IMG/VR virus record: IMGVR_UViG_3300030233_000267
Span: 1 to 41,128 of that record
From: a virus
Direction: 5' to 3' (one strand)
Length of the DNA stretch: 41,128 bases
The position numbers and the translations under genes were made by a program. Below, one piece after another: positions 1,767 through 33,202 of this stretch (position 1 is the stretch's first letter; the number at the start of each line of letters is the position of its first letter). The notes beneath the pieces were generated by a model. It made no database searches and was not told the DNA's origin. It saw nothing but the letters and a program-made list of their open reading frames with translations.

Positions 1767-3029
1767 TCAACGCTCCGAATCGTGAGCGCGGCGCAGCCAT
1801 TCATCAAACGGCAGTTCATCAGGGTAAACGACTTCCAGAAAACGGCGCTTTTCTCCACTGCGTCCTGCATCGAAACGTCGCAAAGCACTGTGCCATTCGG
1901 CCGGCACTCCTTTTGGTGGCATGTCATCCCACGCCCAGGCCTCCTCGATTCGTTCTTTGTTAATTTTCTTCGCCCCCCCGAGGCGGGCGTTGGAAATGTT
2001 GGCATTTGTGAGTTTGGCATCATTCAAATCGGTTGTGCCAATTTCAGCAGAGGTCAAATCAGTTTCGTAAAATTCTACGTTCACAACCTTTGTTCGAACG
2101 AAACTGGCGTTGCGAAGCTTAGCGAACGAGAAGTTGGCGTGGTAACAATTTGCGTCATCAAGAATTGCATCTGTCAGATTTGTTCTGTTCATTTGCGTAA
2201 AGCTGAGGTTCGCCGAATTCAATTTTGCTCTGCTGAGATTAAACGATTTCAGATCAACAGAAGACAGGTTGGCACCAGACAAATCTGGCCTCCAATCCTC
2301 TTGAATTTCCGACCATTCTGCCAACTTCACGCTAGATCTCAGCCAGTTTGCGCTTTCAAGAGCTTTGAGCACATCGCGTTGCAATGGCTCAAAACTTGGA
2401 CGTTCTATTGCGGAATTGTCCTCTTCGATTTCTTCCGCGCGCTTCTGGGAGTGCTCCCTCACAAAATCGTAAAGCAGATCCAGGACCAGATAATACGTTT
2501 CGTCAGGATCGCTCCAAACCAGCTCCCTGAGGGCATATATGCCGGCAAGGCGGACGGAGACATCCTCGCTTTCCAGCATTTGTGCACCTTTTTGATATCG
2601 ATCTATGACCAGGCCCTTTTCGGAAAGCTTATGCGCCTTATGGGCGACCAGCGACCGCCAAAGAGCAACTCCTCCAGCGAGTATGCCAAGCGGTATCACG
2701 CCAAGGTTTCGGATGTTCTCGAGAATAGTTTGTGGTTTCTCCGCTCCGAAGTGGACAAGAAATTCCGAGGGGCTTTTTTCTATGGCAAGCCATCCGATGT
2801 TCCAGCCATGGAGCATCAACGCCCAAACAAATGGTCCAACGATTACAAAAGTCGCGCACGTAATCATGATTGCTGCAGTTGCTTGAAGCCAAGTGATGTG
2901 GCGCCACCGGCGATAAAGCCATTTATTGAAGCGCCGCCATTTTTTCTGGAAGCGGCTTCGTGTGATCACCAGCCACAACTGAGCGCGGCCGGCAATACCG
3001 GGAAGCACAACTTTACTTTTCCGCTGCAT
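1767..3029 (-). CDS. Pentapeptide-repeat membrane protein 1
   Basis: 420 aa, antisense to the phage replication operon. Basic N-terminus (about 1-50), a membrane segment at about 51-73, a second near 108-126, then a helical block (VSVRLAGIYALREL, DETYYLVLDLLYDFVREHS). This block matches a widespread class of membrane-anchored pentapeptide proteins. Pentapeptide repeats of the A(N/D)LXX type follow at about 250-350 (ANLSSVDLKSFNLSRAKLNS), then a C-terminal domain with AWAWDDMPPKGVP. The expected topology is a membrane anchor with a cytoplasmic right-handed beta-helix. It is visibly more AT-rich than its neighbours, paralogous to the gene at 3869-5005, and replaces the 5' half of a sliding-clamp gene. 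No good ribosome site precedes the ATG, so the true start may lie further in or the 5' end may be trimmed. Function is unknown; superinfection exclusion or defence is a hypothesis. Confidence 0.85.
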   Translation of the reverse strand: MQRKSKVVLPGIAGRAQLWLVITRSRFQKKWRRFNKWLYRRWRHITWLQATAAIMITCATFVIVGPFVWALMLHGWNIGWLAIEKSPSEFLVHFGAEKPQTILENIRNLGVIPLGILAGGVALWRSLVAHKAHKLSEKGLVIDRYQKGAQMLESEDVSVRLAGIYALRELVWSDPDETYYLVLDLLYDFVREHSQKRAEEIEEDNSAIERPSFEPLQRDVLKALESANWLRSSVKLAEWSEIQEDWRPDLSGANLSSVDLKSFNLSRAKLNSANLSFTQMNRTNLTDAILDDANCYHANFSFAKLRNASFVRTKVVNVEFYETDLTSAEIGTTDLNDAKLTNANISNARLGGAKKINKERIEEAWAWDDMPPKGVPAEWHSALRRFDAGRSGEKRRFLEVVYPDELPFDEWLRRAHDSER

Positions 3030-3868: not shown

Positions 3869-5005
3869 CTATTGCGGTTGCCAAGGCAGCGGATCAACCA
3901 TGTCAGGCTCGCCGATTTTATCTGCTTCCAGGTAAGCCCTACGGAACTCCTCGTTTCTGCCTGGTGGATAACGTCTCCAAAACATTCCCCAATCGCTATT
4001 CAATCCAATGGGAACTCGATCGGACCAAGTCCATGCGAACGCGAGCTCGTCTCTTTGGTTGAAGTTGGGAGAAAACTTAGCTCCAGATATTTCGGCATTC
4101 GAAAAAATTACGCCTTCAAGATCCGAAGTGCCAAAATTGACGCCCGAAAGATCGGCCTCAAAGAAAGAGACACTGTTCAGTTTTCCTTTGGCAAGCAAAG
4201 CGCCTTTCATTCGGGCCCTGTCGAGTTGTGCGCCTTCAAATTTGCATTCGCGACAAATTGCTCCTTTAAAAGAGGCGTCCGACAGAATTGCACGTCTGAA
4301 GCACGAGTCTTCGATCCACATGTTGGAAAAGTTTACGCCCGACATCGAACAATCATCGAATATGGCTCCCTTTATTCTGATTGTCTGCGTTCCTTCCAGT
4401 TCGACCCAGTCAACTATTTGCTTACGCATAGCTGTGACCGCCCGGAGAGCGGCGATAGCGCTGTCGTCAATTGGCTGGTGGATAGGATATCCTTGCTGAC
4501 GGAAGTGGTTCGTAGATTTTCGTTGTTTCGATCGCTCTACTGCAAATTCAATCAATATTCCGGATATTATCAGGTAGTATTCGTCCGGAAGGGAGAGCGC
4601 CAATTTTCGAAGGGATGCTATGCCAGCATTTCGTTGAATTTCTTCCTGGCTGCTCAACAGCTTTACACCTTCTTGAAAACGTTGATTTTGCAGTCCAGCT
4701 TCAGCAATCGAAAGTTGTCCTTGGCTGAAATTCGCCTGCTTGTGAGCGGTGTAGGATCTCCAAATACCGAGTGGAAGTGCAATTGCTCCAAGCAAGAGCA
4801 ATCCGAGGTTTCTAAAAACACCAGATCTATTCTGTTCGCCTCCCCAATACTCCAAAGTCCATTCGATGCCAAAGTCACGCAGTACGAGTGCCAGAACTCC
4901 CAGCAGAACCAGCAAAAAAACCATTCCGGCAACAAATGCTTCAGGAGGTTCAAAGCCAAATTTTCTTTGAAGTTCCTTCAGTCTCAATTTGGAAAGCTTG
5001 TTCAT
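3869..5005 (-). CDS. Pentapeptide-repeat membrane protein 2
   Basis: 378 aa, a divergent paralogue of the product of 1767-3029 with the same architecture: membrane segments at about 24-45 and 69-88, the shared GIWRSYTAHK segment, a helical block (RNAGIASLRKLALSLPDEYY), pentapeptide repeats at about 205-290 (GVNFSNMWIEDSCFRRAILS) and a C-terminal AFAWTWSDRVPIG matching AWAWDDMPPKGVP of the first copy. GGAAG five bases before the ATG is a reasonable ribosome site. It lies antisense between the clamp remnant and the primase. Its stop is only 24 nt inside what looks like the start of another plus-strand gene (ATG at 3845), so it too seems to have interrupted a gene. Function is unknown; a membrane-located exclusion or defence role is a hypothesis. 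Confidence 0.85.
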   Translation of the reverse strand: MNKLSKLRLKELQRKFGFEPPEAFVAGMVFLLVLLGVLALVLRDFGIEWTLEYWGGEQNRSGVFRNLGLLLLGAIALPLGIWRSYTAHKQANFSQGQLSIAEAGLQNQRFQEGVKLLSSQEEIQRNAGIASLRKLALSLPDEYYLIISGILIEFAVERSKQRKSTNHFRQQGYPIHQPIDDSAIAALRAVTAMRKQIVDWVELEGTQTIRIKGAIFDDCSMSGVNFSNMWIEDSCFRRAILSDASFKGAICRECKFEGAQLDRARMKGALLAKGKLNSVSFFEADLSGVNFGTSDLEGVIFSNAEISGAKFSPNFNQRDELAFAWTWSDRVPIGLNSDWGMFWRRYPPGRNEEFRRAYLEADKIGEPDMVDPLPWQPQ

Positions 5006-27321: not shown

Positions 27322-28557
27322 ATGACTGCACCCACTTTCGGAATGAGTTTCACCCGGCCGGATGACGAGATCGTTCCGGCGCTTGGCGCGGACTTCTCGC
27401 ATGTCCTGGTGATCGAAACCTCGGAAGATGCTTCGGTTGCCGACTTCCCGGAAGGCGAACCCGTTCGCTTCTCCACGAGCGATGCCGCCAAGGTCAACGC
27501 TCTTGGGACAGGGCTGCTTGCCGATGCCGTGAACGGTATCCACGACCAGCTAAATGACCTCAACGCCGGGGCCGATGTGACTGTCGTTCGCGTTGCCGAG
27601 GGCGTCGATACCGCCACAACGGCCGCGTCGATCGCCGCGATCGTGGACGACATCGCCAGCATTCCCTCCAAGGTCAACAAAACGCCGCGTATCGTTGTGG
27701 CGGGCCGCACCGCCTGGCGTCCGGATCTCGAAACCACCAATCCGGTCGTGGCTGCGCTCGAAGCCAATCTCGGCAAGATCCTGGCGGTTGCTCCGGTCGA
27801 TGTGGACGATACCTCGGCGGCCAATGCCATCGACGCCCGCGAATCCATGTCTTCCGAGCGCCTCATGCCGATCGGCGTTGCTGCCCGCATCTGGGACGGT
27901 GCGCAGGTCGTGACACGGCCGATGGCACCGCGTGTCGCCGGCCTGATGATCCGGATCGACAACCAGGTTGGCGGCGGCAAGCCTTTCCACCCCTTCGCGA
28001 ACCGGTCCCTTTACGGTCTTGCCGGCATCTCCCGGAAGATCCCATTCTCGACGCTCGACGGCTCCACGGAGGGCCAGCAGCTGCTGGCGGCCAATGTCGC
28101 TATCGTGGCCGAAGGCGAGACCGGTGTTGACGGCGCGGTGGCCGATGGCGGGTATCGTTTCATCGGCACCGACAACGCACAGACGGGCGAACTCTGGGAG
28201 CAAATGCATCAGGTGCGCGGCACCGACTACATCATCACGCAGATCATCAAAATCACGAACGAGTTCCTCGGGCGGCGCATCCAGCCGGACACGGTCGAGG
28301 CCTGGATCAACTCCATCCATTTCGCGCTGCGGGACCATGTCAACCAGGGCAATATCCTTGGCTATTCGCCGAAGAACGAAATGTTCAAAGCCAGCCAGAA
28401 CAGCCCTGAACAGATCCGGCTCGGCACGCTGAAACTGGATATCGGTATTGAGCCGTGCCCGGTCTTCAAACTGGCCCAGCACGAGATCCGCCGCTGGCGC
28501 CCGGCTGTAGACGGTCTGGTGCAGGAGATCGTCGCGAGGCTTTCGAACGACAGCTGA
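27322..28557 (+). CDS. Tail sheath protein (P2 FI-like)
   Basis: 411 aa, standard P2 FI size. It begins TFGMSFTRPDDEIVPALGAD; an ADFSHVLVIETSEDAS strand-turn segment follows. The contractile core includes VAGLMIRIDNQVGGGKPFHP with NRSLYGLAGISR and ends GIEPCPVFKLAQHEIRRW. The sheath surrounds the tail tube and shortens during injection, so this phage is a myovirus. AAGGAGACAGACA precedes ATG 27322. Confidence 0.93.
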   Translation: MTAPTFGMSFTRPDDEIVPALGADFSHVLVIETSEDASVADFPEGEPVRFSTSDAAKVNALGTGLLADAVNGIHDQLNDLNAGADVTVVRVAEGVDTATTAASIAAIVDDIASIPSKVNKTPRIVVAGRTAWRPDLETTNPVVAALEANLGKILAVAPVDVDDTSAANAIDARESMSSERLMPIGVAARIWDGAQVVTRPMAPRVAGLMIRIDNQVGGGKPFHPFANRSLYGLAGISRKIPFSTLDGSTEGQQLLAANVAIVAEGETGVDGAVADGGYRFIGTDNAQTGELWEQMHQVRGTDYIITQIIKITNEFLGRRIQPDTVEAWINSIHFALRDHVNQGNILGYSPKNEMFKASQNSPEQIRLGTLKLDIGIEPCPVFKLAQHEIRRWRPAVDGLVQEIVARLSNDS

Positions 28558-28607: not shown

Positions 28608-29120
28608 ATGCAGACGCTTTACATGCTGACCGCCGTGGATGTCCGCCGCGCGGAAAAAGAAGGCACGTCGCGGGCAACCACCATCTCGAAACTGACCATT
28701 CCGCCGATCAAGTTCATGACCGCCGGGCACAACCCCGGCGGCAGTGTCATGGCAACGGATTTCAGCCTGCCGCGCATCGAGGCTCTGGAGCCCAAGTTCA
28801 TGGTAAAGGGCCTGGATACCGACATCTTCGGCGGCCTCGGGGAGCGTGACCGTTGGGTTTTTGCGGGCGCTTACAAGGACAAGAGAACCGGGCTTGACGT
28901 TCCGGGGCGGGCGGTCATCGAAGGGGCGATCACCCAATGGGAACCGGATGAGAGCGACCCGGCAGACTTCCAGGGCTGCAATCACTCTCTGACGGAGGTT
29001 ACCCATTTCGAGCTGACGCTCGACGGCAAGGAGCTTTTCTACATCGACTTCTGGGAACGCATTCTGCGCCGTGACGGCGAGGATCTTTTCGCGGGTGTGC
29101 GCGGCGCGCTCGGCTCGTAA
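28608..29120 (+). CDS. Major tail tube protein (P2 FII-like)
   Basis: 170 aa. TLYMLTAVDVRRAEKEGTSR opens the chain; LTIPPIKFMTAGHNPGGSVM and FSLPRIEALEPKFMVKGLDT correspond to the conserved first half of P2 FII. The tail ends LDGKELFYIDFWERILRRDG. It stacks as hexamers to form the inner tube inside the sheath. It directly follows the sheath gene as in P2. Confidence 0.92.
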   Translation: MQTLYMLTAVDVRRAEKEGTSRATTISKLTIPPIKFMTAGHNPGGSVMATDFSLPRIEALEPKFMVKGLDTDIFGGLGERDRWVFAGAYKDKRTGLDVPGRAVIEGAITQWEPDESDPADFQGCNHSLTEVTHFELTLDGKELFYIDFWERILRRDGEDLFAGVRGALGS

Positions 29121-29170: not shown

Positions 29171-29527
29171 ATGAAGAACCAGGTCACTATCACACTGGAA
29201 GAGCCGGTCACGCACGGCGAAACCACCCACGACACCATCGTGTTTTCGCGCAAGCGAAAGGTTCGCGATCTTCTCGCGGCCGACACCGTCAGGGGCCAGC
29301 GCAACAAGGTGTCTGCTGTTTATGCCTCCATGGCCGATGTTCCGCTGGACGTCATCCTGGACCTGGACGCGGATGCCTATGAAGAGCTTGAGGCCAAGGT
29401 GGAACCTCTTATGGGAAAGTCATGGTCTCAAGTGAAGCTGGACTTCATGGCGGAAGACGCGATGAGCGAGACGATGTCGAGCGAAGTGCGGGCGGAGATG
29501 AAGCGCCGGGCCAAAGCTTCGGACTGA
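29171..29527 (+). CDS. Tail assembly chaperone E
   Basis: 118 aa. The layout matches the phage tail assembly protein family (P2 gpE, Mu gp41 relatives): ITLEEPVTHGETTHDTIVFS, KRKVRDLLAADTVRGQ and DLDADAYEELEAKVEPLMGK. It chaperones the tape measure protein while the tube is built. A GGGAAAG slippery sequence at 29413-29419 is in the right phase to shift a share of ribosomes to the -1 frame, giving an E+E' fusion of about 173 aa. Its stop overlaps the E' start (TGATG). Confidence 0.82.
   Translation: MKNQVTITLEEPVTHGETTHDTIVFSRKRKVRDLLAADTVRGQRNKVSAVYASMADVPLDVILDLDADAYEELEAKVEPLMGKSWSQVKLDFMAEDAMSETMSSEVRAEMKRRAKASD
29413..29419 (+). promoter_or_regulatory. Programmed -1 frameshift site GGGAAAG
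   Basis: The heptamer G GGA AAG is in the zero frame of gene E (codons ATG-GGA-AAG). Both tRNAs can re-pair after slipping back one base (GGA to GGG, AAG to AAA). It is the same heptamer that lambda uses for its gpG/gpG-T frameshift. The -1 frame is then open without interruption to 29691, through the E' gene. The site lies 108 nt before the E stop. Confidence 0.75.
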
Positions 29528-29691
29528 TGGTCGCGCAGATCGCGCGCTATCTGCACCAGTCGATCACCGAGATCGAAGACTGGGACGTGCCCTCGCTGTT
29601 CCGGTACTTCCATCACATGGAAGAGGCCATGCAGCGAGAGGCGGAAGCAAAGAGGCCGCCGGGGGGGCGGTTCAGGTTGAGCGCTAAATGA
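29527..29691 (+). CDS. Tail chaperone extension E' (GpE-like)
   Basis: 54 aa when started at ATG 29527; the same frame is open from 29419 and is reached by frameshifting. IARYLHQSITEIEDWDVPSL followed by FRYFHHMEEAMQREAEA resembles the short GpE/E' products of P2-like phages, where Trp- and Leu-rich helices bind the tape measure protein. The fused form would carry both E and E' parts. It lies directly upstream of the accessory insertion that separates it from the tape measure gene. Confidence 0.75.
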   Translation: MVAQIARYLHQSITEIEDWDVPSLFRYFHHMEEAMQREAEAKRPPGGRFRLSAK

Positions 29692-29815
29692 CACCCTAAG
29701 CACGATGCTCGAGTGATTGGATCATGAAATGGTAGAGATTGGTTTGTCTCCAGAACATCACCAGCTCCCCGATGAACAAGAAGGGGAGCAGTTGCGGATA
29801 GGGGGGCATCCTACG

Positions 29816-30607
29816 CTAAGGATTGGATCGGTCGATGTTGTGGATCGCGTCAGCGAGTTTGAGCAAATCGGCAGCGTAGAAGCCTGCCGCATTGATGCAG
29901 TTTGTCTCAAGCATCTTGAGGCCAGTTTCCGTGCGGCAGACGTCCATGACATATGCGCGGGCGTATCTAGGGTTCAATTTGACCAACCGCTCTGCAAATT
30001 CAGCGGCGTCTTGATCAATCTCAGGCCGGTAGACGACGCGTGCCCCTTCCTTATAGAGCGAATAGGTGCGGATAACGTCGTTCACAATCCATATTCGCCA
30101 CTCCTTAAATATGCGCGTGGGCTGCGTCAGCATGAGCTCGGTATCGTGACGCAATGACCCTTTCGGGATCTCGTCCTCTTCAAGGGCTAATACGCGCTCT
30201 GCCAAATCGGCGATTTCGGAAGTATAGCGTACCTTGCCAGGTTCCTCTTTGCTGTCGTCAACCGGACGCATGAACCACTGGCGTTCCTCTTTCGGGAGAT
30301 GGTCAGGGATGCCTCTTAAAGAGAGAAACAAAGAATCAGCACCGTTCAGGAGATATGGATGCCATGGTTTCTCATGGACGAATGGCCGGATCTTGAAAAC
30401 GCCTGGGCTTAGGCCTTCTCGCCGCGCATATCGCCATAGTGTATAAGAGCCAAACAAGACCACGGCATCTCGGTCATCAATCACAGGTTCAGGCTGAAGT
30501 TCACCGACGAATGGAACAACTTTGTGCCAGGTGTACGGGATGCCAAGGCGGTCCAAGGCACCTGCCAGTTTCTCAGTGTCCTCAAAGTGCTGCAAAATCC
30601 ACTGCAT
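29816..30607 (-). CDS. ATP-grasp domain protein (moron)
   Basis: 263 aa, antisense to the tail operon. It reads as an ATP-grasp enzyme, DUF4343-like. The N-terminal MQWILQHFEDTEKLAGALDR and LGIPYTWHKVVPF form a pre-ATP-grasp domain, and FGSYTLWRYARREG and RPVDDSKEEPGKVRY follow. Late segments KEWRIWIVNDVIRTYSLYK, VVYRPEID and MLETNCINAAGFY supply the expected ATP and Mg-binding Glu/Asn residues. ATP-grasp enzymes ligate a carboxylate to an amine or thiol; the substrate here is unknown. The start ATG 30607 lies 1 nt after the stop of a small HTH gene, so the two form a coupled pair. It is more AT-rich than the flanking tail genes. Confidence 0.75.
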   Translation of the reverse strand: MQWILQHFEDTEKLAGALDRLGIPYTWHKVVPFVGELQPEPVIDDRDAVVLFGSYTLWRYARREGLSPGVFKIRPFVHEKPWHPYLLNGADSLFLSLRGIPDHLPKEERQWFMRPVDDSKEEPGKVRYTSEIADLAERVLALEEDEIPKGSLRHDTELMLTQPTRIFKEWRIWIVNDVIRTYSLYKEGARVVYRPEIDQDAAEFAERLVKLNPRYARAYVMDVCRTETGLKMLETNCINAAGFYAADLLKLADAIHNIDRSNP

Positions 30608-30608
30608 T

Positions 30609-30776
30609 TCATGCGCTCGTTTTAACAATGGCGCGCAGGATGTTTTTTGAGATGCCAAGCTCGCGGGCGTTCCAACGATAGCTGCGACCTTCATCCACAA
30701 ACTTCAAGACCTTCGGCGCGTGCCGGTCTGATTTAGGCCGCTCACCCGCTTGCCGGTCCATCTTTTTGAAATTCAT
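30609..30776 (-). CDS. Small HTH protein, resolvase-tail-like
   Basis: 55 aa beginning MNFKKMDRQAGERPKSDRHA. The second half, SYRWNARELGISKNILRAIV, is a helix-turn-helix close to the C-terminal DNA-binding domain of serine resolvases/invertases, but the catalytic domain is absent. A clear GGAG lies 6 nt before ATG 30776 and the stop is 1 nt from the ATP-grasp start, so it may be a functional small regulator, not debris. The alternative is a resolvase remnant left by insertion of the cassette. Confidence 0.55.
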   Translation of the reverse strand: MNFKKMDRQAGERPKSDRHAPKVLKFVDEGRSYRWNARELGISKNILRAIVKTSA

Positions 30777-30835
30777 CAAAAACTCCAATGCATTCACCCG
30801 CCCACAAGCGGCTATGCAATCAGAGGTGTGAATCC

Positions 30836-33202
30836 TTGGCAACCCTCACGTCGCAATTAATCGTCTCGATGATCGAGCGGGTGTCCCGCCCGGCCCAGGC
30901 CGTCAGCCGATCTCTGACGCAGATGAAGCTCAGGGTCGATGCCAATGCACGGGCGATGGACGCCATGCGCGGGCGGATGCTCGACGCCGCCGGTATGGGC
31001 TATGTGCTCGCCAAGGCGATCAGCGCGCCGATCAATGCCGCGCGTGAATTCGAAAACGTGATGGCGGATGTCAACAAGGTGGTCGATTTCGACACGCCGG
31101 ACGGGCTCAAGCAGATGAGCGCGGACATCCTGGCGCTGAGCCGGGAAATCCCGGTGGCCGCCACCGGCATTGCCGAGATCGTCGCCGCGGCCGGCCAGGC
31201 CGGCATGGTCGGTGACGAGTTGCTCGACTTTGCCGAACTGGCCGCCAAGGTTGGGGTGGCGTTTGATCTCTCGGCCGATCAGACCGGGGAAAGCCTTGCC
31301 AAGATCAAGACCGCCCTTGGTTTGACGGTTGAGCAAACCGGCGAACTGGCCGACGTCCTGAACCACTTGTCCAACACGTCGGCATCGTCCGCCTCGGACC
31401 TGCTCGACTTCATGCGCCGTGTCGGTTCGGCCGGCACAGCTATGGGCTTTTCCGCGCGCGAGACCGCGGCTATCGGTTCTGCAATGGTGGCGGCCGGCGC
31501 GCAGGCGGACGTGGCAGCGACCAGCTTCCGCAATGTCGCAAAGGCTCTGGCCCGCGGGGACTCAGCCACGAAACGTCAACGGGAAGCCTACAGCAAGCTC
31601 GGCCTTTCGGCGACGGATGTCGCCAAGCGGCTCCAGGAGGACGCAGTCGGAACCCTGACCGACGTGATCAAACGCATCCGTGCGATGCCGAAAGAGCTTC
31701 AGGCCTCAACCATTTCCGATCTCTTCGGGGACGAGGCGCGGGCGATTATGCCCTTGATCGAAAACGCTGAGCTTCTGTCCGGCGCGCTCGGCGAGGTTGC
31801 GAGCGAGACCAACTATCTCGGTTCCGCTCAGAAGGAATTCGAAGTCCGGTCCCAGACTTTCAACGCGAGACTGCAAAGTTTCCAGAACCGGCTCAACGAA
31901 CTGGCGATCGTGGTCGGCAATGCCTTGCTGCCGGCACTGACTGACATCATGGAAGCGATCATGCCCGTGATCAGCAAGGTTGCGGAACTGGCCGAAGCTT
32001 ATCCGGAAGTGACTGCCGCTGTGGTTGGAACGACGGCGGCACTTGTTGCCCTCAACGTCGCTGCTATTGCCACGAGGTTCGCATTCCTGTTCATGAAAGG
32101 CGGGGTGCTGAACGCCGCGCTCTTTATCGCGCGTGGCGCGGATCTGATCGTTGCGGCCACCAAGCGCCTACGCCTGGCGGTCCTTGCGGCGGGTATGCTG
32201 GGGGCCGCGTCTGGCGGCAGCACGATCTTCGCAGTTCTGGCAACGGCAGCGACGGCGGCGGCCGCAACGATCAAGGCGGCAGCCGTTGCGATCGGCGGAG
32301 CCATTCTCGGGATCTCGTGGCCGATCGCGGCCGTTATTGCGGCTGTCGCGGCGCTCGGGATCGCTGTCTATCGCTATTGGGAGCCGATCAGGGAATTCAC
32401 GCTCGGTTTTGCGGAGGCCGTTGGTGCCGGTCTCGCTGATGCGATGGCGGTCATCACCGGCTTTGCGGCCGACCTCACGACAAAAGCCGCCAAATGGGCA
32501 ACAGACAAGCTGATCGATATCGGCACCATGCTTGGGCTGGATGAGGGGGAGATCCGTGCCGCGCTGGACAGGGCAAAGGCGATTGTGTCGCAAACGATAG
32601 AAGCCATCGCCGATACGGTTCTGGCTCTTCCGGGGATGGTCGGAGACTGGATCTCCGACATCTTCACGATGAACGATTACTCGACGGAGGCGGAGGCCGA
32701 ATTCCGGGATGCCGGAAGAAGGGCGGGGCAGGCTTTGGTCGATGCGATCAAGGACGCCTTTGGCGCGCTCTGGGAATTCCTCAGGACGATACCGGATCGC
32801 ATCGTTAGTGCGATCGGTCGAGTCAATTTGTCAGACATGCTTGGCCTTCCGTCTTGGGCAGGCGGTTCGGACGCACCAGCGCCAGCACCGCAAGCGAGGG
32901 TCGAAGGCGCCCGTGCCCTTGGTGGGCCGGTGGTCGCCGGCCGCACCTATGAGACTGTTGAAAAGGGGTCCGAGCTTTTCACGCCCGATCGGAACGGCTT
33001 CATTCACAGCGCGTCCGCTACAAAGCGGATCCTGGCAGGGGCAGGCGAAGCTCAAAATGCGCCGAGCCAGATGTCGGTCACCTTCGGTGACATCCATGTC
33101 CATGGGGTTCAGGACGCAAAGACCATCGCAAATCAGATCGGCGATGAAATTGAGAGCCGTCTTGCCGGTCTGCAATCGGACACCGGCTGGTCGGTGGCGT
33201 AG
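30836..33202 (+). CDS. Tail tape measure protein
   Basis: 788 aa from TTG 30836. The start TLTSQLIVSMIERVSRPAQA is the usual beginning of P2-type tape measure proteins, and AGAGGTG lies 8 nt upstream, so TTG is preferred to an ATG at 30788 that lies in flanking sequence. A helical N-terminal half contains ISAPINAAREFENVMADVNK. Hydrophobic helices lie at about 391-415 and 450-515, with a Gly/Pro-rich C-terminal region after about 680. It sets tail length and probably inserts in the inner membrane at injection. In P2 it directly follows E+E'; here an ATP-grasp cassette intervenes. Confidence 0.88.
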   Translation: MATLTSQLIVSMIERVSRPAQAVSRSLTQMKLRVDANARAMDAMRGRMLDAAGMGYVLAKAISAPINAAREFENVMADVNKVVDFDTPDGLKQMSADILALSREIPVAATGIAEIVAAAGQAGMVGDELLDFAELAAKVGVAFDLSADQTGESLAKIKTALGLTVEQTGELADVLNHLSNTSASSASDLLDFMRRVGSAGTAMGFSARETAAIGSAMVAAGAQADVAATSFRNVAKALARGDSATKRQREAYSKLGLSATDVAKRLQEDAVGTLTDVIKRIRAMPKELQASTISDLFGDEARAIMPLIENAELLSGALGEVASETNYLGSAQKEFEVRSQTFNARLQSFQNRLNELAIVVGNALLPALTDIMEAIMPVISKVAELAEAYPEVTAAVVGTTAALVALNVAAIATRFAFLFMKGGVLNAALFIARGADLIVAATKRLRLAVLAAGMLGAASGGSTIFAVLATAATAAAATIKAAAVAIGGAILGISWPIAAVIAAVAALGIAVYRYWEPIREFTLGFAEAVGAGLADAMAVITGFAADLTTKAAKWATDKLIDIGTMLGLDEGEIRAALDRAKAIVSQTIEAIADTVLALPGMVGDWISDIFTMNDYSTEAEAEFRDAGRRAGQALVDAIKDAFGALWEFLRTIPDRIVSAIGRVNLSDMLGLPSWAGGSDAPAPAPQARVEGARALGGPVVAGRTYETVEKGSELFTPDRNGFIHSASATKRILAGAGEAQNAPSQMSVTFGDIHVHGVQDAKTIANQIGDEIESRLAGLQSDTGWSVA

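Follow-up and report, generated by a model that had tools for sequence, protein, structure and literature searches.

The programmed -1 ribosomal frameshifts of the phage P2 E/E' and phage lambda G/GT gene pairs are established (PMC3091744, PMC5009743), and in each case a short and a long tail assembly chaperone are produced. P2 carries a T-rich slippery heptamer, TTTTTTG, near the end of gene E and has no downstream RNA structure at the site (PMC3091744), while lambda carries GGGAAAG in a gene pair located between the tail protein and tape measure genes (PMC5009743). Lambda is a siphophage, and its G and T show no amino acid similarity to P2 E and E' (PMC3931495). In HK97-type chaperone genes the frameshifting has been measured at 6-7% (PMC3711429). 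A -1 shift can also be stimulated by a Shine-Dalgarno (SD) sequence located 9-14 nt upstream, as in Escherichia coli dnaX, where it lies at 10 nt (PMC5009743).

We analyzed a virus record of 41,128 bases (the window, meaning the whole stretch) which contains a P2-type tail module in the order sheath FI, tube FII, E, E', T, U, X, and D. The tail sheath gene (27322-28557, PHROG 23) and the tail tube gene FII (28608-29120, PF04985) are followed by gene E on the plus strand, with its ATG at 29171 and its TGA at 29525-29527 (29171-29527, 118 aa). Gene E encodes the short form of the tail assembly chaperone and matches Pfam PF10109 (Phage_TAC_7, E=3.8e-10, 40.1 bits against a cut-off of 25) and PHROG 166 (tail protein). 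On the 3' side of E' are the tape measure gene T (plus strand, 30836-33202 with a likely TTG start; PF10145, E=4e-42 when scanned from the ATG at 30788), gpU (PF06995), a gpX-like gene (PHROG 46), and a gpD-like gene (PHROG 52). The terminase and portal proteins belong to PHROGs 15 and 21. Gene E is thus placed between the tail tube and tape measure genes, as in P2 (after FII, before T) and in the same role as lambda G/GT, and the tape measure protein is the presumed client of E and E+E'.

In the window an accessory insert of 1.1 kb sets T apart from E'. The E'-T junction (29691-30836) is a slot for accessory genes, and the inserts of the relatives are mostly on the minus strand. In the window the slot holds an R2K_3 ATP-grasp gene on the minus strand (29816-30700, PF14243), together with a small ORF with a possible HTH (30609-30842). 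Other occupants are a YccF membrane protein (L009 and L010), a MazF/MazE-like pair (L011), Arc-type regulators (L005), and a small membrane protein (L008); L007 has no insert and its T starts 77 nt past E'. Near the left end of the window the ORF list shows two minus-strand ORFs (1767-3029 and 3869-5005) with pentapeptide-like repeats (ANL/ADL) and hydrophobic stretches.

When the sequence is read in the E frame, bases 29411-29419 are ATG GGA AAG, which places the heptamer GGGAAAG (plus strand, 29413-29419) in the slippery phase X XXY YYZ as G GGA AAG, a phase common to the close relatives. The -1 frame past the heptamer continues as GTC ATG GTC TCA AGT GAA GCT GGA (VMVSSEAG) and contains no stop codon before the TAA at 29689-29691, so that the E' coding stretch after the slip (plus strand, 29419-29691) has 90 aa. 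A slip on AAG is predicted to create the junction MGK-VMVSSEAG and an E+E' fusion of 173 aa (83+90). The sequence also contains TGATG (plus strand, 29525-29529), in which the E stop overlaps a possible E' start ATG (29527). An earlier sequence-only reading of this DNA had proposed a frameshift in a P2-type chaperone pair, and its description of the exact slippery phase, the -1 frame open to the end of E', the TGATG overlap, and the T-rich site of P2 agrees with all of these data. By count alone GGGAAAG is not significantly enriched, with 10 copies in the window vs 7.2 expected; the significance of this copy comes from its position, phase, and conservation.

The E' stretch of the window has no direct match in Pfam. 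A profile of the E' proteins of the clade, aligned with hhalign to a profile of E' proteins from genes with T-rich sites including P2, gave a probability of 95% and E=3.2e-8, which makes the window E' a distant match to P2 E' (PF06528). Since P2 E also belongs to PF10109, the P2-type nature of the pair was correctly recognized in the sequence-only reading. In the -1 product a loose, glycine-rich linker would lead into a conserved domain that has the motif ARYLHQ...W, because the -1 reading inside the overlap is identical at only 13 of 36 positions between the window and Roseibium L008, compared with 35 of 48 after the E stop. In both P2 and the window the -1 shift is near the end of E. The heptamers are different, TTTTTTG and GGGAAAG respectively, and inspection of the protein alignment puts the window site about two codons further downstream than that of P2; counted from the first slip codon, the E tail has 37 codons up to the stop in the window vs about 8 in P2. 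The lambda G/GT heptamer and its phase are identical to those of the window.

We conclude, with a probability of about 0.95, that programmed -1 ribosomal frameshifting at this site produces a short and a long tail assembly chaperone, as in P2 and lambda. The slip itself, its frequency, and the division of labor between the two products are modeled on these two phages. The majority of ribosomes would read E to the stop at 29527 and make the 118-aa protein. In a minority of ribosomes, tRNA-Gly on GGA and tRNA-Lys on AAG would move backwards by one base to GGG AAA, and the slipped ribosomes would translate the glycine-rich linker and the E' domain to the end at 29691 (about 173 aa). The expected role of the E part, present in both products, is to coat the tape measure protein, and that of the E' domain, present only on the rarer long form, is to recruit the tail tube subunit. 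An SD-like AAGGTGG located 10 nt upstream of the heptamer may stimulate the slip.

The sequence-only reading had named conservation of the heptamer in relatives as a check. Labrenzia sp. OB1 (L007) and Roseibium aggregatum IAM 12614 (L008) encode the closest E relatives, with 60% identity. Among the alphaproteobacterial relatives found by protein search (40-60% identity), GGGAAAG is kept in the same phase in L007, L008, the Paracoccus-type L009, L010, and L011, phage vB_PyeM_Pyei1 (L005), and Rhodopseudomonas palustris (L002/L012), the exception being L014 with GGGAAAC. TTTTTTG is the heptamer of two more distant relatives, L004 (AcaML1) and L006 (a Chromohalobacter phage). For a wider survey, E homologues were collected by protein profile alone in family, order, class, and phylum samples, and the count was restricted to pairs whose -1 extension runs for 30 codons or more beyond the E stop. 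Among 115 distinct pairs, 109 contain an in-phase XXXYYYZ heptamer in the overlap; the corresponding counts for the wrong phases are 12 and 9. After collapsing at 60% identity to 80 clusters, 76 contain the in-phase heptamer (wrong phases, 11 and 5), vs 13.9 +/- 2.9 clusters (maximum 20 in 100 runs) after synonymous recoding of the overlap; thus the site is conserved beyond the protein constraint. Four of the 80 clusters have no heptamer at all, which counts against a programmed frameshift. With the heptamer, its phase, the open -1 frame, and the E' domain all conserved, the frameshift proposed in the sequence-only reading is strongly supported.

The most frequent heptamers in the survey are TTTTTTG (36), GGGAAAG (23), TTTTTTC (13), and GGGAAAC (7); TTTTTTA/T, GGGTTTT, CCCTTTN, CCCAAAC/T, and AAAAAAA were also found. 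The frequency of GGGAAAG (23 of 113 sequences) comes from a sampling biased towards the alphaproteobacterial clade of the window, and it falls from 7/20 in the Roseibium family sample to 5/26 (order), 2/26 (class), and 0/19 (phylum). GGGAAAG is the common site of the whole alphaproteobacterial clade of E genes. The combination of a lambda heptamer with a P2-like pair was therefore correctly noted in the sequence-only reading, but the oddity that it implied is overstated, since the combination is clade-wide in alphaproteobacterial prophages; an earlier published case of GGGAAAG in a P2-type pair may exist.

Several other arrangements were observed in the survey. The heptamer GGGAAAC, a type typical of eukaryotic viruses, is in phase in the alphaproteobacterial E genes L014, L035, L083, L130, L134, L135, and L138, and the upstream SD-like stretches of these genes are often strong. 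In Aurantimonas phage AmM-1 (L003, 4573-5049) an E-like domain forms the C-terminal end of a 158-aa protein encoded directly 5' of the tape measure gene, with neither a slippery heptamer nor E', and the frameshift arrangement has apparently been lost. PF10109 genes lacking both a long -1 extension and an in-phase heptamer (L099, L100, L101, L102, L103, L106, and L108) may use another shift or none; phage Mu uses a -2 shift. L106 (G1076:C1:3520658-3521176) and similar genes contain two adjacent PF10109 matches in a single 201-aa open frame, apparently a tandem duplication of the E domain. GGGAAAC and AAAAAAC heptamers have already been reported in Caulobacter siphophages (PMC3556154).

Selection on the slippery codons can also be seen at the codon level. 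The glycine of the PL.G[KN] (or ALMGK) motif is encoded by GGA in 21 of 22 genes, while GGA makes up 11% of the glycine codons in the window. The sole exception, L036, keeps the PLMGK residues with the non-slippery codons GGT AAA; an in-phase AAAAAAA heptamer lies further downstream in this gene, 11 codons short of the E stop. L031 and L035, which are close relatives, have TTTTTTT and GGGAAAC, respectively, at different codons of similar proteins. These patterns indicate that the site is replaceable while the function of having one there is kept. The codon pairs at these changing heptamers include Gly-Lys, Gly-Asn, Pro-Asn, Phe-Leu, and others. On the tree of E, which has 74 columns and is poorly resolved, the heptamer classes cluster strongly (for GGGAAAG, 0 of 500 shuffles were as low), and L061 and L068, which are apart on the tree, may represent separate gains of GGGAAAG.

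The SD-like AAGGTGG (plus strand, 29396-29402), which ends 10 nt before the heptamer, is a candidate upstream stimulator as in dnaX; dnaX is an unrelated gene and has a downstream stem-loop, whereas none is seen at the window site, and lambda has no SD-like stretch comparable to that of the window. Downstream of the heptamer no RNA structure is conspicuous (z -0.2 for the window, class means of z -0.6 to -0.8), a point against the frameshift that applies equally to P2. In 108 loci the complementarity to the 16S tail has a peak 6-10 nt upstream of the heptamer, where it reaches about -3.6 to -4.0 kcal/mol while the background is near -1.3, and it exceeds that after synonymous recoding. It is possible that the frameshift is real and that conserved residues and purine-rich codons give rise to this SD-like stretch as a by-product that does not stimulate the slip, a reading to which we give only slightly less than an even chance. 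Sham anti-SD sequences of equal composition are also in excess (z -2.9 to -5.6), and the test with an 8-nt anti-SD was not specific enough, with 1 of 25 shams reaching a stronger z. When the test was repeated with a longer, 13-nt 16S tail, the real sequence exceeded all 40 shuffled tails in both excess and z, though two shams were as strong in absolute binding. Against a by-product, SD core tetramers are more frequent than expected (z 2.7) and other purine tetramers less frequent (z -2.3), and five control positions in E show no anti-SD excess. In its favor, the P2 AAGGTGG lies only 4 nt before its site, the group with other heptamers has no clear excess at 6-10 nt, and the motif is weak in L007, L008, L011, and L129, so that the SD-like stretch is at most a frequent helper. 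The odds that AAGGTGG stimulates the slip in the window are about even. We found no description of an SD layer for tail chaperone genes in the literature examined.

Much less probable is translation of E' from a small gene of its own through re-initiation at TGATG, with the heptamer incidental. The ATG on the E stop is present as TGATG in the window, L005, L007, L008, and L011, and an ATGA overlap is present in L014 and L129. Yet a start codon of any kind within -16 to +29 nt of the E stop occurs in just 60 of 113 loci and a start overlapping the E stop in 21 of 113, vs the in-phase heptamer in 76 of 80 clusters, and re-initiation needs no slippery codons and leaves the GGA bias unexplained. 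Because a start codon near the E stop is not a conserved feature, we rejected re-initiation as the general route to E', although it could take place in the window itself. Transcriptional slippage as the source of the fusion is most improbable and was rejected: long T runs can slip during transcription and some relatives have them, but the GGGAAAG site has no homopolymer longer than 3, and the sites keep a strict codon phase of which RNA polymerase slippage is independent.

A point against the preferred reading, ribosomal frameshifting at the heptamer, comes from the lysine tRNAs of the hosts. E. coli has a single tRNA-Lys (UUU) for AAA and AAG, as about half of known bacteria have a single lysine tRNA (PMC5009743). 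Roseibium, Labrenzia, Rhodopseudomonas, and two more hosts of GGGAAAG genes carry both tRNA-Lys TTT and CTT, and in the Paracoccus host a pattern search found tRNA-Lys TTT only. Re-pairing of a CUU anticodon with AAA is expected to be poor. Because these hosts carry both tRNA-Lys, GGGAAAG may behave differently than in E. coli, and the E. coli efficiency may not be transferable to them.

The window site is very probably a well-supported but ordinary use of a known mechanism, and a lambda heptamer in a P2-type pair is ordinary among alphaproteobacterial prophages. The turnover of the heptamer and the likely SD layer are the modest new points of this survey. We propose, tentatively and at somewhat less than even odds, that P2-type chaperone genes keep a fixed frameshift position and phase while the heptamer turns over freely, many of them with a dnaX-like SD stimulator at a fixed upstream distance. 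For annotation, E and E' should be joined in many alphaproteobacterial prophages; in Paracoccus phage vB_PyeM_Pyei1, for example, p50/p51 consist of a homologous E with the in-phase GGGAAAG and a -1 E' and are annotated as two separate genes with no frameshift. The E family is a case of an essential recoding event whose place and outcome are kept while the signal is swapped, and its dozens of natural variants (GGGAAAG, GGGAAAC, CCCAAAC, TTTTTTN, and CCCTTTN) could be used to test the ribosome response outside E. coli, including in hosts with two lysine tRNAs.
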